Shown in pieces: positions 16,036 through 33,204 of a DNA stretch of 64,000 bases. Position 1 is the stretch's first letter, and each line of letters opens with the position of its first letter. Position numbers and translations under genes: made by a program. Origin of the DNA: Bacteroidota bacterium (GTDB lineage: Bacteria; Bacteroidota; Bacteroidia; Chitinophagales; Chitinophagaceae); assembly GCA_028875875.1 (NCBI GenBank), contig JAGWUV010000001.1, positions 124,001 to 188,000 on the forward strand. The letters run 5' to 3'. The notes beneath the pieces are model-generated. The model had not been told where the DNA came from. It saw only the letters and a list, made by a program, of their open reading frames with translations, and did no database searches.

Positions 16036-16626
16036 TTAATGTACAATGTAAACCCGCAGGCTCAGTGGGCCGTGAGCGCCAATTACCAATGATTGTTCTA
16101 TATCTGCCGTTTTAGATGGGCCGGAAATAAATACGCCATAGCCTTCTTCATTCACTTGAATCTTGCGGTAGGCCTGATGCATATTACTTACAATATCTTT
16201 TGCTTCTATCACTAATACCAAATGCTGACAAATAAAAGGCAATAAGCGGTTGGGCAAGTTTTTATCGTTTAACCAGATGGCACCGTTTTCGGCAATGCCA
16301 ATGGGTCCCTTTATTAATGCATAATCTAATGAAGCCAGCGCAGCGGCAGATTGGTTAATCGTATCAGCACCATCATTCACAATGCCATCCACGCCATCTA
16401 TCACTGTAACAATTTTATATTGTTGTTTCAATTCACTGACGTATTGTATCACCTCATCCCATCCATCTACTTCTTTCACCTCAGTACTCAGGTTTTTCAG
16501 TATAGCTGTGAATTTTACGATAGGATTTTCTTCCGTTACATCCAGCAGTGCCGGGATTTCCTGCAAAGGGATCAACGCAGGTTTATTGTTTTTAACGGCC
16601 TGTAATATTTTATCTCTTGTGCTCAT
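16036..16626 (-). CDS. lutC: LutC, lactate utilization protein (LUD domain)
   Basis: A 196-residue LUD-domain protein, third gene of the lut operon for L-lactate oxidation to pyruvate. The ATG at 16626 (MSTRDKIL) begins 2 bases past the lutB stop; a start at 16653 would overlap lutB and adds an unconserved stretch. Conserved glycine-rich segments around ENGAIWLND and the C-terminal GAHGPLSLRVYIV are present. Confidence 0.9.
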   Translation of the reverse strand: MSTRDKILQAVKNNKPALIPLQEIPALLDVTEENPIVKFTAILKNLSTEVKEVDGWDEVIQYVSELKQQYKIVTVIDGVDGIVNDGADTINQSAAALASLDYALIKGPIGIAENGAIWLNDKNLPNRLLPFICQHLVLVIEAKDIVSNMHQAYRKIQVNEEGYGVFISGPSKTADIEQSLVIGAHGPLSLRVYIVH

Positions 16627-16628
16627 GG

Positions 16629-18002
16629 TTATTGTTTGTTCTGTTGATACCATTCCCTGAAACTCTGTTTAGGAGGTGCAGGCATTTCCCTGTTTTTATA
16701 CCAGGGATTGAGGGACTTATTATTGAAAAGCCAGGGCATCCATCGCATAACTTTTCTTCCCATACCTCCTGCCATACGATAGATGCGTGGATGTGACAGT
16801 ACAAAGGCCATTCCTTTCATCATTATATTTTTCCCTGAACCGCCGTAGCCTTCTTTCATCAGTACCTGCCGCCATTTCCAGAGCTGGTCGTGAATATCAA
16901 TTTTCACCGGGCATACATTAGAACAAGAACCGCATAATGTAGAAGCAAAAGGAAGATCTGCATTCTTACGCATATCGATATTTGGCGCAAGAATAGAACC
17001 AATAGGTCCTGCCACGGCATTGTGATAGCTGTGGCCACCGCTTCTGCGGTATACGGGGCAGGTATTGAAACAGGCCCCACAGCGAATACACTTTAAAGAA
17101 TTACGAAAATCGGCCCGGCCCAATTGCCTGGAGCGGCCGTTATCTACAATTACAATATGCATTTCAGCGCCTTTGCGTGGCTTATGAAAGTGGCTGGAAT
17201 AAGTGGTAATCGGTTGGCCGGTAGCACTACGGGCCAGCAGGCGGAGGAATACGCCCAGGTGCTCTGCCTTAGGAATCATTTTCTCCATTCCCATACAGGC
17301 AATATGTACCCTTGCTGCATGAACACCCATATCGGCATTGCCTTCGTTTGTACAAACTACTATGCCACCTGTTTCCGCGATAGCAAAGTTTACACCTGTT
17401 ATCGCCACATCAGAGGCGATGAATTTATCTCTCAGGTGCAAGCGGGCCGCATGTGTGAGGTAGGATGGATCTATATTATCTTTTTCCGTTCCTAAATGCT
17501 CATGAAAAGTATCGCTTACATCCTGTTTTTTCAGGTGAATCGCCGGTAATACAATATGGCTGGGTAACTCGTGGCGAAACTGCACAATCCTTTCTCCCAG
17601 ATCGGTATCTACCACATCTATGCCTTGCTGTATGAGGTATTCGTTGAGATGGCATTCTTCCGTAAGCATTGATTTGCTCTTCACAATCTTATCAATTCCC
17701 GCTTTTTTTATGATGCTGTGCACTATGGCATTGTGTTCCGCAGCATCGGCTGCCCAATGCACCTGTACACCATTGGCCAGTGCATTCTGTTCAAACTGCG
17801 TAAGGTAATCGTGCAGGTTGGAAAGTGTATGCTCTTTAATGTGCGATGCCGTAGCTCTCAGTCCTTCCCATGCTTCGATAGTATGAGCGGCACGGTCTCT
17901 TTTGGTTCTTACAAACCAAAGAGTATCATCATGCCAGTCTGTACGCGGCTCATTTGCAATAAATTGGGCTGCCTTTTCGGAGTGTGTAGTGGTTCCTTGC
18001 AT
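16629..18002 (-). CDS. lutB: LutB, lactate utilization iron-sulfur protein
   Basis: A 457-residue protein with an N-terminal LUD domain (about 60-300) and a ferredoxin-like part holding two 4Fe-4S motifs, CIRCGACFNTCP near 307 and CGSCSNVCP near 357. LutB passes electrons in the LutABC lactate dehydrogenase. It lies between lutA (5-base gap) and lutC (2-base gap). Confidence 0.94.
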   Translation of the reverse strand: MQGTTTHSEKAAQFIANEPRTDWHDDTLWFVRTKRDRAAHTIEAWEGLRATASHIKEHTLSNLHDYLTQFEQNALANGVQVHWAADAAEHNAIVHSIIKKAGIDKIVKSKSMLTEECHLNEYLIQQGIDVVDTDLGERIVQFRHELPSHIVLPAIHLKKQDVSDTFHEHLGTEKDNIDPSYLTHAARLHLRDKFIASDVAITGVNFAIAETGGIVVCTNEGNADMGVHAARVHIACMGMEKMIPKAEHLGVFLRLLARSATGQPITTYSSHFHKPRKGAEMHIVIVDNGRSRQLGRADFRNSLKCIRCGACFNTCPVYRRSGGHSYHNAVAGPIGSILAPNIDMRKNADLPFASTLCGSCSNVCPVKIDIHDQLWKWRQVLMKEGYGGSGKNIMMKGMAFVLSHPRIYRMAGGMGRKVMRWMPWLFNNKSLNPWYKNREMPAPPKQSFREWYQQNKQ

Positions 18003-18007
18003 GATGA

Positions 18008-18748
18008 TCAGTTAAAATGTGCGTTAAGAATTTCAGCAATGTGAATCACTTTCACTTTACTGTGCTGCCTTTTTAAAATACCTTCCATGTGCATGAGGCA
18101 GCTCATATCAACACCGGTGATATAATCAACATGATTGTCTTCGTGTTCCTGTACCCTGTCTTTTCCCATCTTGGCCGATACGGCTTCTTCAAATACACAG
18201 AAGGTGCCGCCAAAACCACAACACTCATCAACCCTTTGTGGTTTACAAAGTGTAATACCTTTTACCATATTCAATAAGGTTTCAGGTTTGGAGAAGGCGG
18301 GTAACACACGTTCACTCATAGAAGATAAATGCAGGCCGCGCTGGCCATGACAGCTGGAGTGTATGCCTACTTTAAAAGGGAAAGATGCCGTAAGATGGTC
18401 TATCTTCAAAACATCTATTAGGAATTCACTGAGTTCGTATACCTGTTTGCGTATTTTCTCGGCTTCTGCTTCCTTTCCTTCTACATGCAAATGATCTTTT
18501 ATATGCAGTGTGCAGCTCCCTGAAGGACAAACGACATAATCCACACCTGAAAAATTATCAACAAAGTTTTTATTGCACCCTTCACTGATGTGAGAAAAAC
18601 CGGAGTTGGCCATAGGCTGGCCGCAGCATGTTTGTTCTAAAGGGAAAACAACTTCACAACCTAACTTTTCTAAGAGTTGCATGGTGGCAATAGCCACATT
18701 AGGATAGAACTGGTCTACATAACAAGGCACAAACAAACCTACTTTCAT
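18008..18748 (-). CDS. lutA: LutA, (Fe-S)-binding oxidoreductase subunit
   Basis: A 246-residue protein with two cysteine-rich CCG domains (CCGQPM near 42, CCGFGG near 183), as in LutA and glycolate oxidase GlpC/GlcF subunits. It is the first gene of lutABC. A perfect 18-bp palindrome lies 22 bases upstream of its start. Confidence 0.94.
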   Translation of the reverse strand: MKVGLFVPCYVDQFYPNVAIATMQLLEKLGCEVVFPLEQTCCGQPMANSGFSHISEGCNKNFVDNFSGVDYVVCPSGSCTLHIKDHLHVEGKEAEAEKIRKQVYELSEFLIDVLKIDHLTASFPFKVGIHSSCHGQRGLHLSSMSERVLPAFSKPETLLNMVKGITLCKPQRVDECCGFGGTFCVFEEAVSAKMGKDRVQEHEDNHVDYITGVDMSCLMHMEGILKRQHSKVKVIHIAEILNAHFN

Positions 18749-19077: not shown

Positions 19078-19446
19078 ATGGAGTATATTTTAAGAGGAGA
19101 AGATATTGTGGTGAATATGAGTTTTTTAGAGGAGTTGGCAGGAGATGATCCTGCCACAATTAGGATTCTAATTGAAACATTTATTGCTACTGTTCCCGCT
19201 TCGGTACAGCAGCTGAAAGAAGCTTTTGAACAGCATGACTGGAATACCTTACGCCAAAAAGCCCATTCTCTCAAATCATCCTTATCTGTTATCAAGGTAG
19301 ATAATTTACAGGAGCATTGTAACGTTATAGAAACAACAGCCTCTGCAGATAATACAGAGAAAATACATTTATTGATAACAGAAATAAATGAAAAGGCAAA
19401 GAAAGGTACAGGCCTCTTGCTGCAGCTGTTGCAACAACTGGAATAA
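19078..19446 (+). CDS. Hpt domain phosphotransfer protein
   Basis: A 122-residue four-helix Hpt protein with phosphorylatable His63 in KAHSLKSS. It carries no kinase domain, so it would receive phosphate from a separate or hybrid kinase. It is followed 55 bases later by a single-domain receiver and then the polysaccharide synthase genes, which suggests a phosphorelay that controls that machinery. Confidence 0.9.
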   Translation: MEYILRGEDIVVNMSFLEELAGDDPATIRILIETFIATVPASVQQLKEAFEQHDWNTLRQKAHSLKSSLSVIKVDNLQEHCNVIETTASADNTEKIHLLITEINEKAKKGTGLLLQLLQQLE

Positions 19447-19501
19447 ATAGAGTGGAATAATTTATTTTCGTAAGGTCCTTTGAAGAACTTAAATCAATAC
19501 T

Positions 19502-19867
19502 ATGTTTAAAATTCTAATTGCAGAAGACGAACCTCTGATGTTAAAAACCCTTGAATTAAAACTGCAAAAAGAAGGGTACCAGGTAATTGCCTGTAATGAT
19601 GGAAGGGAAGCTTTGCAAAAGATCGAATCCGAGCAGCCGCAATTAGTTATTACCGATATTATGATCCCCTATGTTTCAGGGTTGGAAATTGTGCGCCATG
19701 TAAAAGCCATGAACACTTCTTTACCAGTGATCGTACTTTCTGCTATGGGGCAGGAGAAGACTGTTGAAGAGGCGTTTGAACTAGGGGCCGATGATTATAT
19801 TACCAAGCCTTTTAACCTGAATGAGCTGGCCATTCGTGTAAAGCGATTAACCAGGAATATCAGGTAA
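19502..19867 (+). CDS. Single-domain response regulator (CheY-like)
   Basis: A 121-residue receiver only: EDE acidic pair at 8-10, Asp52 in VITDIMIP, SA switch and Lys in ITKPFN. With no output domain it must act by protein contact, by phosphate transfer with the upstream Hpt protein, or on the HEAT-repeat or synthase proteins encoded next. Confidence 0.93.
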   Translation: MFKILIAEDEPLMLKTLELKLQKEGYQVIACNDGREALQKIESEQPQLVITDIMIPYVSGLEIVRHVKAMNTSLPVIVLSAMGQEKTVEEAFELGADDYITKPFNLNELAIRVKRLTRNIR

Positions 19868-19990
19868 AACTCTATTGTTGTTTCATAAATCCAATAACGT
19901 TTGATTATTCCCCCATGTTCTACTCGGCAGTGCCTGTTACCGGTTTTGGCCAGGGCAGGAAACGGGTTCACCCGGTTTACCTCCCATATT

Positions 19991-21061
19991 ATGCAAACGG
20001 AATACCTCTGGGTGGCCATCATTATTTTGTTTATTGTCTTTCTCTTAACCGTGATGTTTATTTTCATACATCTCAAGATGTTGAAGTACCGCTTCTTGTA
20101 TAAAAAAAGTATTCGGAATAAGCTGGAGGTTTGGATCACCCAGTCTATACTGGATGATATTAGTGATGAAGGTGCGGCTTTTGAGATCCCCGAGAAATTC
20201 CGCCGTATTCTTCAAAATAAAGTAGCTCGCCAGTTTGTAATTGATGAACTGGTGAGCAGTAAAAAAAACCTTACCGGAACAGCAGGTAACAATATTGTAA
20301 AGTTGTACGAGGAACTTGACCTGAAAAAAGATTCACTTGAGAAAATGAGCAGTACCCAATGGTACATCAAGGCAAAAGGTATTCAGGAACTGTACCTAAT
20401 GGATCAGAACGATATGCTTAAGCGTATTTATAAAAACATCAATAGCCGAAATGAATACATACGCATGGAAGCCCAAACCGGTATTATCCACATGAGCGGA
20501 TTCGATGGCCTTCGTTTTTTAGATGTAGTGGCTTATCCTTTAACCGAATGGCAGCAACTGAAATTACTTGACCAGCTGAAGCTGAACGATGTAAAGGAAA
20601 ATTTTTCCCAATCCATCATACGCTGGCTTACTTCTCATAATGATACAGTTATCATTTTTGCTTTAAAGCTGGCGGCCGAATACCAGCAATTTTCTGTTCA
20701 CAACGATGCTGCAAGAGCATTGCATCACACCAACGGCAACGTACGTTACCAGGCTATTAAAACATTGAAAAGATTGGCTAATGAAACAACAGCCTCTTTA
20801 CTGGCCAATCATTTTCCTAAAGAGAACCAGCGCAACCGCCTGCTTATCTTAGAAGTGCTTACAGATATAGGTAGTGTGGAGCAAACCAATTTTCTGGAAA
20901 ACCTTTTAAATGTAAAAGATATTACCATTCAGCTAAAAGCAGCCACGGCACTGGCCAAAGCAATTCCTGGCGGTAATGAGTTATTATATCAAAAAGCAAT
21001 TGCACAACCGGATTTATTAAGTGCAGTGTACCTGCATGTAAAAGCAGCTTTAAAACTATGA
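19991..21061 (+). CDS. Membrane-anchored HEAT-repeat protein
   Basis: A 356-residue protein with one N-terminal membrane helix (about 5-28) and a cytoplasmic helical-repeat domain. HEAT-like units are visible from about 120 onward (for example NVRYQAIKTLKRLA near 250 and LKAATALAKAI near 320). The ATG at 19991 places the membrane helix at the N-terminus; an upstream frame to 19901 adds an implausible stretch. Its stop overlaps the synthase start by 4 bases (ATGA). It is probably a scaffold or regulatory partner of the synthase, a role inferred from linkage only. Confidence 0.75.
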   Translation: MQTEYLWVAIIILFIVFLLTVMFIFIHLKMLKYRFLYKKSIRNKLEVWITQSILDDISDEGAAFEIPEKFRRILQNKVARQFVIDELVSSKKNLTGTAGNNIVKLYEELDLKKDSLEKMSSTQWYIKAKGIQELYLMDQNDMLKRIYKNINSRNEYIRMEAQTGIIHMSGFDGLRFLDVVAYPLTEWQQLKLLDQLKLNDVKENFSQSIIRWLTSHNDTVIIFALKLAAEYQQFSVHNDAARALHHTNGNVRYQAIKTLKRLANETTASLLANHFPKENQRNRLLILEVLTDIGSVEQTNFLENLLNVKDITIQLKAATALAKAIPGGNELLYQKAIAQPDLLSAVYLHVKAALKL

Positions 21062-24000
21062 CCTGGAGTACTATACCGGAAATATTTTTTGAAGTGATCA
21101 CTGCCCTGGTATTTATTTACTCGGCACTGCTGGTTATTGTGTATGTGCTTATTGCTTTGTATTCTATTGGAGGAACAAAAAATTATTTAAGGAAAAATAG
21201 TTTTACCGATTACCGTTTGCTCGCTGCTTCTCCTCACATTCCTTCTGTAAGTGTATTGGCTCCTGCGTATAACGAAGGAAAAACAATTGTAGAAAACGTT
21301 CGCTCTTTATTATCTATCTATTACAGCAATCTTGAAGTAATTATAATTAATGATGGCAGTAAAGATGATAGCCTTGTACAGCTGATAGAAGCTTACCAGT
21401 TGGAAAAAGTAGACTTCCTGGTGAATTACCAAATTCACACAAAGGAAGTAAGGGGCATTTATAGAAGTAAAAATCCTGTTTACAATAAGCTGGTAGTAGT
21501 TGATAAAGTAAATGGTGGTAAGGCAGATGCGTTGAACGTAGGCATTAACATTGCATCGAACGATTATCTTGTTTGTATTGATGTGGATTGTGTGCTGGAG
21601 CAGGATGCGCTTTTAAAAATGATGAAGCCTTTTATGGAACAAACAGATGAGAGGGTAATTGCCTCAGGCGGTGTAGTACGTATTGCTAACTCATGCATTA
21701 TTGAAGATGGGAGACTGGTAAAAGTAAAACTACCCGACGATTATTTACCCCGTGTACAAACGCTGGAATACATCAGGGCTTTTATTTTAGGCAGAATGGC
21801 CTGGAGCCGGTTAAATGGCTTGATGCTTATTTCCGGAGCATTTGGTGCTTTTGATAAAGATATTGTACTGAAATGCGGCGGCTATAACCATAACACGGTA
21901 GGAGAAGATATGGAACTGGTAGTACGGATGCGGCGTTATATGGAAGAAAGGAAAGAAAAATATCGTGTTACGTATATTCCCGATCCGTTATGCTGGACAG
22001 AAGCACCGGCTACATATACTATTTTAGGAAGGCAGCGTAACCGATGGACAAGAGGTACTTACGAAACCCTTATGCTGCATAAAAAAATGTTTTTTAATCC
22101 TAAGTATGGCATAATGGGGTTGTTGAGTTACCCTTACTGGTTCTTTTATGAGCTGAGTGCCCCACTGATTGAGTTTCTTGGATTTGTCGCTTTCTTTTTC
22201 TTTGCTATAGCAGGATTGATCGACTGGAGCTTTTTCTTTCTATACCTGCTAATGATCATCTTTTTTGGATACGCTTATTCTGCTTTTGCTATATTGATGG
22301 AAGTTACTTCTTACAATATGTATCGGCGAAGAACAGATATTCTGCGTTTGATCTTAACAGCTATATCCGAACCTTTTTATTTTCATTCTTTTGTTGTGTG
22401 GAGCGCTATCAAAGGATTTATTGACCTGCTGAAAAAAAATAAAGGATGGGGAGAAATGACAAGGCAGGGCTTCGCCAAAAAAACTACTCCACAAGTACAG
22501 CCTGTATTAGTGACCGCAACAACCGCAACAACAGTTGTAGCTTCTGCAGATTTGCCCGAGCGGGAAAATAAACAACCTGCAGTATTAACAGTCTTCTTAT
22601 TGCTATTAAGGGTTGGTAGAAAATATACGGGTTTTGCAGTGGTGTTAGCCATGTTATTGCTATTATGCAGGTTTGTAGAATGGGGCCTTGATTTGTATAC
22701 TTACGGTACACCATTATTTGCAGCAAAAACTTTAATGATAAGCGTTTTACAAGACGCGTCTTTTATTGTAAAGGCAACAGTAGCTTTATTTATTCCTTTT
22801 TTGGTACTCTATTTTATTCATAAGAAAACAGCAGTTGTTTTTCTTTCAGTTCTAAGTATACTTCTATGTCTTACACAGTTATCGCTTTCTGAGTATTTTA
22901 TTAAAACCCTTGTTCCTTTGGGTGCTGACTTGTGGAGTTATTCATGGAATGATATCCGGCAAACGGTTGGTGCGTCAGGTGGTATAAATATTACTGTAAC
23001 GCTTCTCTTACTGCTTTTTGTTTTATTAAGTGTAGCAGCCCTTGCTGTCATTCCTAAAAAAATAAAACCCGGCAATGCTACGGCACTGTTGGTTGCACTT
23101 GTGTATACAGGCTTATTAATGAGTGGCTTTACATCTAAAGCAGAGGAATGGAAGCCCGGCCCTGAAAACAGCAATAACCTGGCAATTAATAAAACCAATT
23201 TCTTTATCGCTAAATCTTTGGAATACTTTTTCCCGATGGAGCCTGATGTTGATATTTATGCAGCCAATTATTTACTTAGCCCTACCGATAAAAGCATTGT
23301 AAAATTTAGGTATACGGATGAAAAGCAATATCCTTTTTTGCACGTAACCGATAGTAGCGCTGATGTATTCACTCCTTTTTTTGATACGGCTGCTGTGCAT
23401 CCAAACATTGTGATCATTGCTGTTGAAGGGCTGGGAAGAGCTTTTTGTGGCGATGGGGCTTACCTGGGTAGTTTTACGCCCTTCATTGATTCGTTAGCCG
23501 GGAAGAGCTTGTACTGGGAAAATTTCTTAAGTGAAGGTGGAAGAACATTCGCTTTACTTCCTTCACTTACAGCATCCTTACCGTTTGCATCAAATGGTTT
23601 TTTGGAAATGAAGGGCCATATGCCTGATCATCTTTCTTTATTTTCTATTCTTAAAAACAATCATTACCAAACCGGATTTTATTATGGTGGCGACAGTCGT
23701 TTTGATAATATGGATTACTTTTTGCAACGCAATGGTGTTGAGCATATTGTTGATGAAGCTGCTTTTGCTGGAGGGTATACAAAAATGCCTGCCGTAAATG
23801 GTTTTACATGGGGCTATGATGATAAAGAATTGTTCAGAAAATATTTTGAAACACTGACGGCTGCAAAAGAACCGTATTGTAATTTCTTGCTTACAGTAGC
23901 ATCGCATAATCCTTTCTTAATTAATAATGAAGATGTTTATCTTCAAAAATTTGAAGCAAGGATGAATGCCTTGGGTTTTTCAGATAAAGTGAAGCAGCAA

Positions 24001-24594
24001 TATCGTAACTACAAATACCAGTATGCCAGTATTTTGTTTGCAGATGATGCAGTACGGCAATTGATAGAACAATACAGGCAACGACCCGATTTTGATCATA
24101 CTGTATTTCTTATTACAGGTGATCACCGGATGCCTGAAATACCAATGAACAGTAAGATCGACCGCTATCATGTTCCATTGATCGTTTACTCACCTTTACT
24201 AAAAAGAAGAAGCACATTTTCTTCTGTTTCCACACATTTCGATATTACACCCACATTGCTGCAATGGCTGCACAGACAGTACGCCTTGCAGATACCCGAT
24301 ACGGTGAGCTGGTTGGGAAGCGGGATTGACAGCAGCCGATCGTTCAGAAATATTCATGCGTACCCGCTGATGCAAACAAAGACCGATATTAATGATTTTA
24401 TTATGGGAGATTATATGCTGAATGGAAGTGACTTGTATAAGATTAATACCAGGCTTGAATTAGAACCCGTTAGTAACAATGCACTGGAAGAACAACTAAA
24501 GGCGGGGTTCGACCGGTTTAAAATTAGGAATACAGTCATCATCAATGGCGGCAGGCTCTTGCCTGATAGTATTTTTAAACGCTTTGCACCTTAG
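21058..24594 (+). CDS. Fusion of a GT2 polysaccharide synthase and an LtaS-type phosphatase-superfamily domain
   Basis: A 1178-residue membrane protein. The N-terminal half is a processive family-2 glycosyltransferase: membrane helices near 10-35, Asp99 (INDGS), DVD at 175-177, ED at 283-284, QRNRW at 326-330, then helices at about 360-460. After a linker (470-508) several more helices (508-700) lead to a periplasmic alkaline-phosphatase-superfamily domain like LtaS or BcsG. Its likely metal and nucleophile residues are Glu790, Thr830, His950 and Asp1022-His1023. The synthase would extrude a polymer and the second domain could add phosphoglycerol or phosphoethanolamine, which is inference. 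The polymer is unknown. The gene is coupled to the HEAT protein and converges on the next gene with a 5-base gap. Confidence 0.85.
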   Translation: MTWSTIPEIFFEVITALVFIYSALLVIVYVLIALYSIGGTKNYLRKNSFTDYRLLAASPHIPSVSVLAPAYNEGKTIVENVRSLLSIYYSNLEVIIINDGSKDDSLVQLIEAYQLEKVDFLVNYQIHTKEVRGIYRSKNPVYNKLVVVDKVNGGKADALNVGINIASNDYLVCIDVDCVLEQDALLKMMKPFMEQTDERVIASGGVVRIANSCIIEDGRLVKVKLPDDYLPRVQTLEYIRAFILGRMAWSRLNGLMLISGAFGAFDKDIVLKCGGYNHNTVGEDMELVVRMRRYMEERKEKYRVTYIPDPLCWTEAPATYTILGRQRNRWTRGTYETLMLHKKMFFNPKYGIMGLLSYPYWFFYELSAPLIEFLGFVAFFFFAIAGLIDWSFFFLYLLMIIFFGYAYSAFAILMEVTSYNMYRRRTDILRLILTAISEPFYFHSFVVWSAIKGFIDLLKKNKGWGEMTRQGFAKKTTPQVQPVLVTATTATTVVASADLPERENKQPAVLTVFLLLLRVGRKYTGFAVVLAMLLLLCRFVEWGLDLYTYGTPLFAAKTLMISVLQDASFIVKATVALFIPFLVLYFIHKKTAVVFLSVLSILLCLTQLSLSEYFIKTLVPLGADLWSYSWNDIRQTVGASGGINITVTLLLLLFVLLSVAALAVIPKKIKPGNATALLVALVYTGLLMSGFTSKAEEWKPGPENSNNLAINKTNFFIAKSLEYFFPMEPDVDIYAANYLLSPTDKSIVKFRYTDEKQYPFLHVTDSSADVFTPFFDTAAVHPNIVIIAVEGLGRAFCGDGAYLGSFTPFIDSLAGKSLYWENFLSEGGRTFALLPSLTASLPFASNGFLEMKGHMPDHLSLFSILKNNHYQTGFYYGGDSRFDNMDYFLQRNGVEHIVDEAAFAGGYTKMPAVNGFTWGYDDKELFRKYFETLTAAKEPYCNFLLTVASHNPFLINNEDVYLQKFEARMNALGFSDKVKQQYRNYKYQYASILFADDAVRQLIEQYRQRPDFDHTVFLITGDHRMPEIPMNSKIDRYHVPLIVYSPLLKRRSTFSSVSTHFDITPTLLQWLHRQYALQIPDTVSWLGSGIDSSRSFRNIHAYPLMQTKTDINDFIMGDYMLNGSDLYKINTRLELEPVSNNALEEQLKAGFDRFKIRNTVIINGGRLLPDSIFKRFAP

Positions 24595-24599
24595 CAAAA

Positions 24600-25778
24600 T
24601 CAATTATTGTTGTAATAATCATTCAATATTCTTGTAAGAAGTGGCCTGTAAGCTTTCCAAAAAAAACTTTCCCGTTCTTCGGGATCTGCGGTATTATACA
24701 TGATGAAGTCGATGTAAGGTATTCCTTTAAAATGAGAACTAACAAGGTTTACAGGGCTATCACTAAAGTCTGCGGAGAAGTAAAAAAACCGATAATCGTT
24801 GTTCCTATGTACCGTTATGGCAGGGAATAGAGAGGGAATACCGGCTTGTTGTAATAGCTGTTTACCTTTTGCATTGGCATCTATGGAAAAGGAAGCAATC
24901 GTATGATTGAAACTACTGTCGATCTTAATTACATCAAACCAGAATGAATATTTTATAGAAGCAGGTAATCCATAATGCTGTTGCTCTTCAATGCCAGCTT
25001 TTATTCTTGGTAATTCATCATTCAACTCTTTATCTTTTTCAAGAACAACAACATTATCTCCATCTTTTATAAATACAATACCGCTTTTGGTAAAAGGCCA
25101 TCTGTTATGATGCTGTTCTTTGTAACTCTTAATAAGCCAGCGTGGAATATCTTTATTTTCTGTAGTATCGAGAGAGGTGAAATAGCGTCCGATCCAACCG
25201 GTCCACTGCATACCAAAACTGTGTTCAAACTGGGTACGAATCATTGAAGAAGTAGGTGCACCCAGGCAGTTAAACTCTGTAATGATCAGTTTATGTTTTG
25301 CCTTCATTTGTTGTAAAAAATAAAGATCTTCTTCACTCATGCCACCATACAATATGCCTTCCTGTGGTAATGCGGAAGTAGTAGTGTACCAGTCTTTTTT
25401 ATAAATCCCATATGCATCTGCCAAATAAATGGCCTGTGCATCATCACTTAATTGTTCAAGCTGGCTTTTGTTAAAACGTTCCAGTCCTCTCACAATATAT
25501 TTTCCATTAACAGAAGGAAAGAATCCAAAATAATCTCTCTGTGGTTGATACAATTCAGTTTTGTTCTTTGTAAACTTCTCATAATTCAGTACCCAGTTGA
25601 GTGATCTGTGTGCCTGAATTTTTTGTGTAAGCACTGTCTTATCAATAATGGCAATAGTTAATTTTTTTGTGGGTGAAGAAAGCCATGCAAGCCACATCCA
25701 TACAGGAGAGCCGAGTACCAGTAACAATAGGATAACCTTAAGAAACTTCCTGTATTTTTTTAAAAACGGTGCAGCCAT
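24600..25778 (-). CDS. Membrane-anchored protein of unknown function in the polysaccharide locus
   Basis: A 392-residue protein with one N-terminal helix (about 13-32) and a large extracytoplasmic domain. I do not recognise the family. Notable segments are IYLADAYGIY near 120, GGMSEED near 145, ITEFNCLGAPTSS near 170 and GWIGRYF near 195; the alternation suggests an alpha/beta fold. The last 19 bases of the frame's upstream neighbour (the TPR/barrel gene) overlap its start. From position it may modify, cleave or guide the polymer in the periplasm, much as PgaB does in PNAG systems, but no deacetylase motif is seen. Confidence 0.6.
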   Translation of the reverse strand: MAAPFLKKYRKFLKVILLLLVLGSPVWMWLAWLSSPTKKLTIAIIDKTVLTQKIQAHRSLNWVLNYEKFTKNKTELYQPQRDYFGFFPSVNGKYIVRGLERFNKSQLEQLSDDAQAIYLADAYGIYKKDWYTTTSALPQEGILYGGMSEEDLYFLQQMKAKHKLIITEFNCLGAPTSSMIRTQFEHSFGMQWTGWIGRYFTSLDTTENKDIPRWLIKSYKEQHHNRWPFTKSGIVFIKDGDNVVVLEKDKELNDELPRIKAGIEEQQHYGLPASIKYSFWFDVIKIDSSFNHTIASFSIDANAKGKQLLQQAGIPSLFPAITVHRNNDYRFFYFSADFSDSPVNLVSSHFKGIPYIDFIMYNTADPEERESFFWKAYRPLLTRILNDYYNNN

Positions 25779-27019
25779 GCTAAGCCTATTTGGTATTGAT
25801 TGCCTTTTGTATCGGGAAGGTATTCCTGGTTAAGCCAGTTGGCATCTGCCGATAATACATTCATTTTAGAAACTTTTTTCCTGAATGTTATGCCGGCTTT
25901 GTAGGTTTTAAGTTTGGCCGTGAAAATTTGTATGGCATTGTAACGGTCATCAGGAGAAATACCATAACCTGCTGAAAATGCCACTACATCATCTGCAGAG
26001 CCATAATAATAATTAGCAATAACGTTGTAGGATGCCGAAGGCGTATTTACATAGGTTGATGGTGTAACATAAGTACGGGCACCGAACAACCAGCTTTTAT
26101 AATATTTTCCAACATAGGCTGTGTACACCCAGGTAGGTGTTCCGCTGAATAAAAGATAACGAACCCCCAGTTCGCCTTCATAGCTTTTAGGAAGATTGGC
26201 ATAAAGAGAAAATCCGCCCCGCCACTGTGGAAAAACACCATTATTATTATCGCAGTAAGCAACATTTACATAACTGTAAAAAGTTTTTGAGATATGCGGA
26301 TAGGCTTCCGCTTCATACTGTACTGCATTTTGTGCAAAACGATTGGCATAGTTAATGCGGCCTGTAACAACACCTATGGGAGTAGTTCTGCCATAATCCA
26401 CACTAACCAGATGCCAGGGATCCGAGAATTGTTTATCGAAATACACAAAATCATAACTCACATCTATTTTATTTTTTGATGCCGATTCCCTGATCGAATT
26501 GGCTAAAGCCCTTGCCGCAGTATTATTTCGATTAATAGAAATAAGTTTCTGAATGGTGGCTTCAGCATTTTCGTATTGTTGTAATGCATTTAGAACCTTG
26601 GCTTTTCTCAATAACAATTCTTCTGAGGAAGGATGATATTGTAAACCTTTATTACAAATAGCCAATGCGTTATCATAATGATTATTCCAATATTCCACAT
26701 CGGCATAAGCAACGGAGGCATCTTCATATTCCGGTTGAATATGTAAAGCGCTGTCAAAACAATAACGTGCACTATCGTAATGGTTTGTCCATGAGTAAAT
26801 CCTTCCTAAAAATATCCAAAGATCAGCGTAACCGGGGCTTTTGGTAATGGCCTTGTTCAGGTATTGCTTGGCAGTGTTATAATCTTTTTGCGTAAAAGCT
26901 GCGGTGCGTGCCATTTGAAAAAGGCCGTCGGCTGAAGTAGAATCCTGGGCAATGGATGCAGTGCTGAAAATAAAATAGCAACCAATGATAAGCAGGAGTT
27001 TTTGTACGCATTTCTGCAT
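25760..27019 (-). CDS. YaiO-like TPR and outer membrane beta-barrel protein
   Basis: A 419-residue protein with signal peptide (cleavage near SIAQ), TPR repeats over about 28-170, and a C-terminal beta-barrel of about 230 residues that ends in Phe, as outer membrane proteins do. The layout resembles a small PgaA/BcsC: periplasmic TPRs joined to a barrel for polymer export. Together with the GT2-LtaS fusion and the adjacent periplasmic protein it forms a plausible synthesis-to-export set. Confidence 0.8.
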   Translation of the reverse strand: MQKCVQKLLLIIGCYFIFSTASIAQDSTSADGLFQMARTAAFTQKDYNTAKQYLNKAITKSPGYADLWIFLGRIYSWTNHYDSARYCFDSALHIQPEYEDASVAYADVEYWNNHYDNALAICNKGLQYHPSSEELLLRKAKVLNALQQYENAEATIQKLISINRNNTAARALANSIRESASKNKIDVSYDFVYFDKQFSDPWHLVSVDYGRTTPIGVVTGRINYANRFAQNAVQYEAEAYPHISKTFYSYVNVAYCDNNNGVFPQWRGGFSLYANLPKSYEGELGVRYLLFSGTPTWVYTAYVGKYYKSWLFGARTYVTPSTYVNTPSASYNVIANYYYGSADDVVAFSAGYGISPDDRYNAIQIFTAKLKTYKAGITFRKKVSKMNVLSADANWLNQEYLPDTKGNQYQIGLAWLHRF

Positions 27020-30126: not shown

Positions 30127-33100
30127 ATGTCAGAAATTAAATTACCGAGATTATTAGCAGCGGCTAAAGAGTTTAATGTTGGCCAGGATACCATCATTGA
30201 ATTCCTTGGCAAAAAAGGCTTTAACCGAGATGAGCTGAAACCCACCGCAAAGCTTTCGGAGGAAATGTATTTTGCTTTGCAGGCAGAATTCCAGTCGGAT
30301 AAGGCCGCCAAAACAAAAGCAGACCAGGTTGAAATACCGAAAGGAGGCAGTGGGGAAGCAAAAAGAAGAAAAGAGGAAGAGGAAGTAACATTCAGAAAAG
30401 AGGAAAAGAAACCTATATTTAAAGAAGAGCTCAAGACTGAAGAAGTAAAAGAGCCCGTTCTGCCGCCGGTTGTGGCAGAAGAAGCGCCAGCCCCTGTTAT
30501 ACCTGTTGTAGAAATTCCGGAAACGCCAGCCCCTGTTGCAGAACATACAGATTCAGGCGTTATCAAAATTGAAGCTCCGGAAATTGAAGGCCCCAAAATT
30601 GTTACCAAGATAGATTTGAGTGCCATTGATTCTTCTACCAGGCCGAAAAAGATAGTAAAGAAAAAAGAGGATGAAATGCCTCAGCAACAGGAAGAAGAGA
30701 TACCTGCAACTGTTGAAGTGAAAGAGGAAAGAACCGAAGTACCACCACCAGTAGCGCCTGTTGTTGTTGAAGTAAAAGAAGAAAAAGCAGTAACTTCTGC
30801 TCCGACACCGGAAGTGAAGAAAGAAGAAACCCCTGTGACAGAAGTCCCTGCCGCATCTGCTTCAGCAGAAGAAGCAGCCCCGGTGATTGAAAATATTGAA
30901 GTTGAAAAATTAACCGGACCTAAAATTTTAGGCAAGATTGCATTGCCGGTGGATAGTGATACAAGGCCTAAACCCTCTCAACGGGATGAGAGTCGTAAAA
31001 GAAAACGTATCCCCATTCAAAAGCCAGGCCAGGCACCTCAGCACGGACAACACGGACAACATGGACAAGGCCAGCAACAAGGTGGCGGCCAGTTTAACCG
31101 TGATGGAAGACCGGGTCAGCCGCAACGTGGTGGTCAGGGTGGCGGTCAGTTTAACCGTGATGGAAGACCGGGTCAGCCGCAACGTGGTGGTCAGGGTGGC
31201 GGTCAGTTTAACCGTGATGGAAGACCGGGTCAGCCGCAACGTGGTAAAGGAGGAAGACACGAGCCTATTAAACGTGAGGAAAAAGAAATTGACGCAAAAG
31301 AAATACAGGATAAAATTAGGGAAACACAGGCCAAACTGGCCGGTGCTACCGGAAGAGGTAAGAGCCTGAAAGCCAAACACCGCCGGGAAAAGCGCCAGGA
31401 AATGGCAGAGGCAATGGGAGATGCAGCAGAAGATAATAAACTGCAGGTTACCGAGTTTGTTACAGTAAGTGAGTTGGCCAACCTGATGGATGTAAGCTTT
31501 GCTGAAGTAATCAGCAAATGTATGAGCCTGGGCATTATGGTGTCAATTAATCAGCGTTTAGATGCCGAGGTAATTGAATTGGTTGCCAGCGAATTTGGAT
31601 ATGAGGTAGAATTCATAGGTGTTGATGATGTTGAAGAAGTGGAAGAGGAGGATGAAGCTGATGATGAAGGAAATTTAAAGGGCCGTCCACCGATTGTAAC
31701 CATTATGGGGCACGTTGACCACGGTAAAACTTCATTGCTGGATTATATCCGTAACGCTAATGTGGTAGCAGGTGAAGCAGGTGGTATTACCCAGCACATT
31801 GGTGCTTATGAGGTAACGTTGCCAAGCGGTAAACATATTACTTTCTTAGATACTCCTGGTCACGAAGCATTTACTGCAATGCGTGCCCGCGGTGCTAAAG
31901 TAACGGACATTGCTGTGATCGTGGTGGCCGCAGATGATGCGGTGATGCCTCAAACCAAAGAGGCAATTAGCCACGCACAGGCTGCCGGTGTACCAATGAT
32001 CTTTGCCATCAATAAAATTGATAAAGATGGTGCTAACCCTACAAAAATCTATGAGCAATTATCTCAAATGAACTTGTTGGTAGAAGAATGGGGTGGTAAA
32101 TACCAGAGCCAGGAATTATCTGCCAAGAAAGGATTGAATGTTGATCTTTTACTTGAGAAAATATTGTTGGAAGCAGAGTTGTTAGACGTGAAAGCCAATC
32201 CGGATAAGGAAGCCACAGGAACTATCATCGAAGCTTCATTGGACAAGGGCCGCGGTTATGTTGCTACTATACTGGTGCAAAATGGAACATTAAGACAGGG
32301 AGACCTGATTGTTTCCGGACAGCATTTCGGTCGTATCAAAGCCATGTTCAATGAGCGTAACCAGCGTGTTCAGGAAGCACCACCATCAACACCGGTTGTA
32401 ATATTAGGTTTGAACGGAGCTCCGCAAGCAGGTGAGAAGTTCAAAGTATATGTAGATGAAAGCGAAGCAAAAGAAGTAGCTACCAAACGTGCACAAATCC
32501 TTCGTGAACAAGGGTTACGTGCCAAGAAGCATATTACGTTGGATGAGATCGGCCGTCGTTTGGCATTGGGTAACTTTAAAGAACTGAACATTATTATCAA
32601 AGGTGATGTGGACGGTTCGGTAGAGGCTTTAAGCGATTCATTACAAAAGTTATCTACAGAAGAAATTGTTGTTAGGGTAGTTCATAAAGGTGTTGGACAG
32701 ATCTCTGAAAGTGATGTGTTATTGGCAACGGCTTCCGATGCTATCCTGATAGGCTTTAATGTTCGCCCTTCAGTACAGGCAAGCCGCCTCGCAGTTACGG
32801 AAGGAGTGGAAATAAAGATGTATTCTATCATCTACAACGCCATCGAAGAAGTGAAGAGTGCGATGGAAGGTATGTTAGAGCCTAAAGTAGAAGAGAAAGA
32901 AGTAGCAACCATTGAAGTGCGTGAAGTGTACAAATTTGATAAAGCTACTGTTGCAGGATGTTATGTTCAGGAAGGAAAAGTGAAGAGAGATGCCAAGATC
33001 CGTATCTTCCGAGATGGTATCCTTCTGTATCCAAGACAGGAAGGTGCATTTGCAGAATTAGGTAGTTTGAAACGCTATAAAGACGATGTGAAAGAAGTGG

Positions 33101-33204
33101 CTTCTAACATGGAATGTGGTTTAACACTGAAGAACTTCGGCGATATTAACGTAGGCGATACGATTGTAGCCTATGAGCAGGAAGAGATAAAACGTACTTT
33201 ATAA
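30127..33204 (+). CDS. infB: Translation initiation factor IF-2
   Basis: A 1025-residue IF-2. The IF2_N domain at 1-60 is followed by a long acidic, Pro/Glu-rich linker and a basic Gly/Gln/Arg tract with three 19-residue tandem repeats (about 319-373). The G domain has GHVDHGKTS (P-loop) near 529, DTPGHE near 575 and NKID near 629; domains II-IV follow. It brings initiator tRNA to the 30S subunit. The N-terminal extension makes it long for the family. Confidence 0.96.
31081..31247 (+). repeat. Three in-frame 57-bp tandem repeats in infB
   Basis: Units start at 31081, 31138 and 31195, nearly identical in DNA, each encoding [17 protein letters not shown] plus a GQ linker. The low divergence points to recent expansion or ongoing slippage. 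The length of 57 is a multiple of three, so copy-number change keeps the frame. Confidence 0.9.

Follow-up and report, generated by a model that had tools for sequence, protein, structure and literature searches.

A gene cluster at positions 19078-27019 of a 64,000-nt stretch of DNA (the window, whose numbering is used here) from a 3.5 Mb Chitinophagaceae (Bacteroidota) genome had been put forward in a preliminary description as a phosphorelay-linked system for polysaccharide synthesis, modification and export. The six open reading frames (ORFs) of that description, with their domains, were all recovered at their coordinates in the ORF list and in Pfam and NCBIfam scans. The forward strand encodes an orphan Hpt phosphotransfer protein of 122 aa with His63 in the motif AHSLKSS (19078-19446; Pfam Hpt, 1.7e-12), a single-domain CheY-like receiver of 121 aa with the phospho-acceptor Asp52 (19502-19867; Response_reg, 5.4e-31), a HEAT-repeat adaptor with one N-terminal transmembrane (TM) segment (19991-21061; HEAT_2, 4.3e-8) and a 1178-aa fusion protein (21058-24594). 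The fusion combines a GT2 synthase half, approximately residues 1-500 (21058-22557; Glyco_tranf_2_3, 2e-20), with an LtaS-like transferase half of the alkaline-phosphatase superfamily (22558-24594; Sulfatase, 3.2e-32). Although the ORF list starts the HEAT gene at a TTG (19901), the ATG at 19991 is the more likely start because the homologues are mostly 340-390 aa long and begin just before the TM segment. The 4-nt overlap noted earlier is real: the end of the HEAT gene, with its stop, runs into the start of GT2 (21058-21061). A second unit on the minus strand converges on the stop codon of the GT2-LtaS gene and consists of two genes overlapping by 19 nt: F (25760-27019), with a signal sequence, TPR repeats and a YaiO outer-membrane barrel (YaiO, 5.4e-62; TIGR04390, 1.3e-48), and E (24600-25778), a predicted periplasmic protein with a membrane anchor. 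A scan for the Bacteroidota promoter motif returned 4 hits against 3.4 expected, none of them at the cluster genes.

Relatives were collected with the GT2 half as query, together with 54 further stretches from across the phylum, and include Sediminibacterium, Niabella, Terrimonas, Pedobacter, Mucilaginibacter, Sphingobacterium, Chryseobacterium, Myroides, Wenyingzhuangia, Pontibacter and Rufibacter; the loci L067-L146 were chosen by GT2 similarity. Some loci were counted twice (e.g. L037=L067, L039=L143 and L040=L073), so that totals of about 150 are slightly inflated, and sequence counts, such as that of 94 receivers, are lower bounds wherever the crude ORF picker overlooked small genes. With this scope, 139 of about 150 homologous GT2 genes are directly preceded, on the same strand, by a HEAT gene; the two mostly overlap, by 4 nt at 64 loci, 7 nt at 17, 1 nt at 13 and 8 nt at 7. 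A dedicated single-domain receiver is the next gene upstream of HEAT in at least 94 loci, at a median gap of 10 nt. Among the 65 loci of a named-species set with complete flanks, HEAT is immediately 5' of GT2 in every case, a YaiO gene is near in 59, the dedicated receiver in 55, LtaS in 51 (fused in 32) and E in 25; E is accompanied by LtaS in 39 of 42 loci. The gene maps show a receiver-HEAT-GT2 core that YaiO, LtaS and E often accompany. At the level of whole genomes, the GT2 family was found in 94 of 395 Bacteroidota genomes and YaiO in 93, both being present in 92 and only 3 genomes being discordant; carriers of the system include Pedobacter, Sphingobacterium, Chryseobacterium, Chitinophaga and Pontibacter. 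The Fisher p value of 7e-87 for this co-occurrence ignores shared ancestry, but within a single genus (g85) GT2 and YaiO are missing together from some members (G202 and G228), and such paired absence argues against ancestry alone as the explanation. The YaiO gene can also sit outside the cluster, as in G240, which has GT2 on contig 85 and YaiO on contig 36. The association of the six genes is strongly non-random, far beyond chance, and the neighbourhood is conserved across Bacteroidota, so that the genomic condition set beforehand for refuting the proposal (genes not occurring together in related genomes) does not apply.

The GT2 half displays the D,D,D,Q(Q/R)xRW signature of processive membrane GT2s, with flanking TM helices assigned by hydropathy alone, and is predicted to be processive. 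D99, D175, D284, Q326, R327, R329 and W330 are present in 141 of 141 GT2 homologues, and D177 in 140. Among named models PgaC/IcaA scores best (2.2e-40); yet the GT2 half reaches 138.8 bits against the cut-off of 422.3 for the poly-N-acetylglucosamine (PNAG) synthase (TIGR03937), and 25.1 against 699.1 bits for the cellulose synthase BcsA (TIGR03030), with PilZ absent from both protein and genome. Membership in the PNAG or cellulose families was accordingly rejected on these curated cut-offs. The substrate is possibly a hexosamine, the clues being the PgaC-like best score, LysM domains in some HEAT relatives and a second glmS in the cluster of one relative (L049), whose genome has another glmS elsewhere. 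On contig C5 of the genome under study (locus L056, 6512-12486) a second LtaS-like protein of 810 aa is encoded divergently from a 1143-aa GH18-polysaccharide deacetylase-GT2 fusion; the two are perhaps a paralogous synthase and transferase.

The residues expected of a head-group transferase are intact in the LtaS-like half: T330 is present in 79 of 81 homologues (Ser in the other 2) and E290, D522 and H523 in all 81. Its closest relative in the PDB is Vibrio VP1736, followed by LtaS; it reaches only 54.8 against 970 bits on the LtaS equivalog model. The Trp and Arg of the glycerophosphate pocket (W354 and R356 of Staphylococcus aureus LtaS) are absent: in the LtaS half the aligned positions are occupied by an invariant Asp383 and, in most homologues, by Met385, and the head group is thus not necessarily glycerophosphate. 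On the GT2 tree, GT2 and LtaS are fused at 43 tips and separate at 41, with at least 8 switches between the two states, a pattern to be expected if the proteins work side by side. In Escherichia coli, BcsG is recruited to BcsA through protein contacts (PMC11470070), whereas the link here is covalent. An apparent single LtaS-TPR-YaiO ORF in L045 was not taken as firm evidence of a further fusion because the genes abut in the related L048, and a sequencing error in a metagenome-assembled genome or a lost stop codon could create it. Hydropathy and charge place the transferase domain, like E, in the periplasm.

Searches with E against Pfam, NCBIfam and the PDB returned nothing significant, so that only its predicted fold is informative. 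The model (mean pLDDT, the predicted local distance difference test, of 84.8) has a GATase1/ThuA-like domain after a single N-terminal TM segment (residues 15-33). Its VIA-align Z scores are 14.5 with the corresponding GH42 domain, 14.2 with STM3548, 13.9 with a GATase1-like protein and 13.4 with residues 146-363 of Agd3 (root-mean-square deviation 3.8, 205 aligned), and with matches so nearly tied the fold is established but the function is not. The Agd3 segment 141-364 founded the family CBM87, which has this fold without the Cys-His-Glu triad, exposes conserved aromatic residues and binds a GalNAc polymer (PMC7229062). The positions of E conserved at 90% or more include 36 aromatics and no Cys. 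In contrast to Agd3, E has no deacetylase domain and no detectable sequence similarity to CBM87, and equally high scores are reached by many other folds of the GATase1 type. Given the lack of a conserved Cys, the 36 conserved aromatics and the CBM87-like fold, our best guess is that E binds glycan. Alternative partners are seen in relatives: a DUF4838-related protein of about 740 aa recurs beside YaiO (L182, L185, L186, L193, L179, L195, L200 and L050), and CotH-kinase proteins occur in L043 and L062.

F exceeds the cut-offs of the YaiO family on both models (PF19413, 209 bits vs 23.9; TIGR04390, 166 vs 32); the link is through the YaiO profile, pairwise similarity to E. coli YaiO not being significant. 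The structural model (pLDDT 91.2) comprises TPR repeats at residues 30-180 followed by a 14-strand barrel, and over the whole length BcsC is its best fold match (E 3.3e-9); PelB is among the other matches.

The Hpt and receiver proteins carry the His, Asp and Lys phospho-sites of a phosphorelay. The Hpt His is conserved in 13 of 13 sequences, and D9, D52 and K102 of the receiver, which has no output domain, are near-invariant in 108 homologues. Large receiver-bearing proteins are encoded near GT2 in 62 loci, and both examples scanned with Pfam were hybrid kinases with an Hpt domain. Orphan Hpt genes are found in 12 loci and never in the same locus as a large receiver-bearing or hybrid kinase protein, as though either could take the other's place. 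The HEAT homologues share a single N-terminal TM segment, which in the window protein spans residues 38-56 (numbered on the long ORF) and is followed by positive charge; the repeats are therefore predicted to be cytosolic, next to the active site of GT2. In the HEAT relatives of L043 and L062, LysM domains sit between an N-terminal hydrophobic segment and a second TM segment, with the HEAT repeats following, which suggests that some versions may also contact a GlcNAc-containing glycan in the periplasm. In several relatives, genes for H-NOX (haem-NO-binding) proteins lie close to the cluster's kinase or receiver genes (L045:2973-3530, L048:11925-12611 and L049:17108-17647), directly adjoining a kinase-receiver gene in L045 and L048; inputs to the kinases would thus vary, and nitric oxide is suggested as the input in some relatives.

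We interpret the cluster as a synthase-dependent exopolysaccharide system in which the phospho-modifying enzyme is covalently coupled to the synthase and a phosphorelay acts post-translationally through the receiver and HEAT proteins, a reading to which we give a probability of roughly 65%. In the model that we infer, the membrane GT2 would polymerise a cytosolic nucleotide sugar (possibly of a hexosamine) and extrude the chain; the fused LtaS-like domain would decorate the emerging chain with phosphoglycerol or phosphoethanolamine, a head group taken from a phospholipid, in the periplasm, where the membrane-anchored CBM87-like E may hold or guide it; and the TPR/YaiO barrel would export it. 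A hybrid kinase encoded elsewhere would pass phosphate to the orphan Hpt and from there to the single-domain receiver, which would bind the membrane-tethered adaptor at its HEAT repeats, on the cytosolic side, and in this way open or close the synthase. The claim that the set covers the inner membrane, periplasm and outer membrane is borne out, given the membrane GT2 (D,D,D,QxxRW), the predicted periplasmic phosphotransferase and glycan-binding-like protein, and the TPR and outer-membrane barrel. Likewise, control through Hpt/CheY and HEAT in place of c-di-GMP (cyclic di-GMP) gains support from the conserved synteny, the mutual replacement of orphan Hpt and hybrid kinases, and the finding that carriers lack PilZ and, for the most part, GGDEF. 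More broadly, we regard it as an even bet that receiver and membrane-tethered HEAT form a phylum-wide, c-di-GMP-independent post-translational switch for this GT2 synthase family, serving swappable periplasmic partners (LtaS-like, CBM87-like E, CotH kinase or DUF4838) and one YaiO exporter.

Several observations weigh against this interpretation. Core loci without a nearby YaiO, LtaS or E exist; the contact between receiver and HEAT is proposed solely from synteny; a GlmS within the cluster turned up in just a single relative; and the genome under study retains one canonical GGDEF gene. PgaA and BcsC barrels have 16 strands, and F, with its TPR repeats, is modelled with 14; moreover, the best alignments of its barrel on its own (Z 19-20) are with FadL/TodX, OmpG and CymA, a cyclodextrin channel. 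Alternatively, the GT2 product could be retained in the periplasm or membrane, whether as an OpgH/OpgB-like glucan or a lipid-linked teichoic-acid-like polymer, and decorated by LtaS, the YaiO barrel having another role. The osmoregulated periplasmic glucan systems do pair a GT2 synthase with a phosphoglycerol-transferase-type enzyme, and the LtaS half matches LtaS structures and, weakly, an OpgB-type model (NF003000, 1.3e-11), in addition to which some core loci have no barrel nearby. We nevertheless consider retention improbable, since GT2 and YaiO are almost inseparable at the genome level even when not adjacent, the TPR and barrel together match BcsC over the whole length, and the Pfam scan of the cluster proteins gave no OpgG-like match, an outer-membrane barrel being present where such glucans have no exporter.

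Single-domain receivers can act at a distance, and the receiver and Hpt could instead control transcription or another process and be merely encoded beside the synthase, with HEAT a structural assembly factor. As this would allow, about half of the loci showed no kinase or Hpt in the vicinity, and in some clusters the receiver stands on the YaiO side; the explanation is nonetheless an unlikely one because the receiver accompanies HEAT-GT2 throughout the phylum at such short spacing, lacks an output domain and keeps its phospho-sites near-invariant. Control by c-di-GMP, as in the PNAG and cellulose systems, appears very improbable. In some deep-branching relatives (L202, L232-L234 and L219) a GGDEF or GGDEF-EAL gene does adjoin the cluster, but PilZ is absent from 21 of 21 carrier genomes searched and GGDEF from 19 of 21, control genomes giving matches, so that c-di-GMP machinery is nearly absent from carriers. 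In one deep genus, receiver-GGDEF-receiver fusions lie directly upstream of HEAT-GT2-YaiO (L232:6167-7954, L233:6395-8035 and L234:6633-8195); the GGDEF motif of the L234 fusion, checked with Pfam, is degenerate (RWESDMF). The only GGDEF protein of the genome under study, a membrane protein with an RGDEF motif, is encoded on contig C54 (L235, 2615-11452) with a CBASS-like pair (a patatin effector and a DncV-like cyclase), after a type I restriction specificity gene, in what is a CBASS/restriction island.

Outside the cluster, an apparent lactate-utilisation (LutABC-like) trio lies just upstream on the minus strand (16036-18748), its LutA-like gene having a CCG domain when scanned, and the gene for the translation initiation factor IF2 (30127-33204) contains tandem in-frame repeats (19 protein letters) at 31000-31350.

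The architecture is of a known kind, that of synthase-dependent exopolysaccharide systems, yet none of the named systems tested fits, and the control module looks new. It resembles type II cellulose secretion of E. coli (BcsA/BcsG/BcsB/BcsC) in having a membrane GT2 and a transferase of the alkaline-phosphatase superfamily that is coupled to the synthase (in E. coli by physical recruitment, PMC11470070) and modifies the polymer, here putatively, in the periplasm, as well as a periplasmic protein for carbohydrate binding, for which E is the candidate here, and a TPR and outer-membrane barrel. It differs in that the GT2 is far under the CelA cut-off (25 vs 699 bits) and PilZ is lacking, the transferase is covalently fused, E is GATase1-like, the barrel is a 14-strand YaiO and receiver and HEAT take the place of c-di-GMP. 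With PgaABCD/IcaADBC it shares the best GT2 model and a TPR and barrel exporter; however, no PgaB deacetylase/glycoside hydrolase or PgaD was found among the cluster proteins, and the PgaA model gives 28 vs 367 bits. The yaiS-yaiP-yaiX-yaiO locus of E. coli, which has putative deacetylase and acyltransferase genes, likewise combines a GT2, YaiP (25% identity over 228 residues, E 1e-12), with a YaiO-family barrel, but has no receiver, HEAT, LtaS or TPR, and its yaiX is split by IS2 in K-12. We found no description of the receiver-HEAT-GT2-YaiO set in the open-access literature searched, where absence is no proof and where papers naming yaiO are mostly PCR-detection work.

The well-studied synthase-dependent exopolysaccharides, namely cellulose, PNAG, alginate and Pel, are switched by c-di-GMP. 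The receiver-HEAT-synthase core is present in about a quarter of the sampled Bacteroidota species (94/395) and, if our interpretation is right, would show how a matrix polymer can be controlled with little c-di-GMP machinery. It would also give the YaiO family a function in Bacteroidota, and the GT2-LtaS fusion would represent a covalent version of synthase-transferase coupling.

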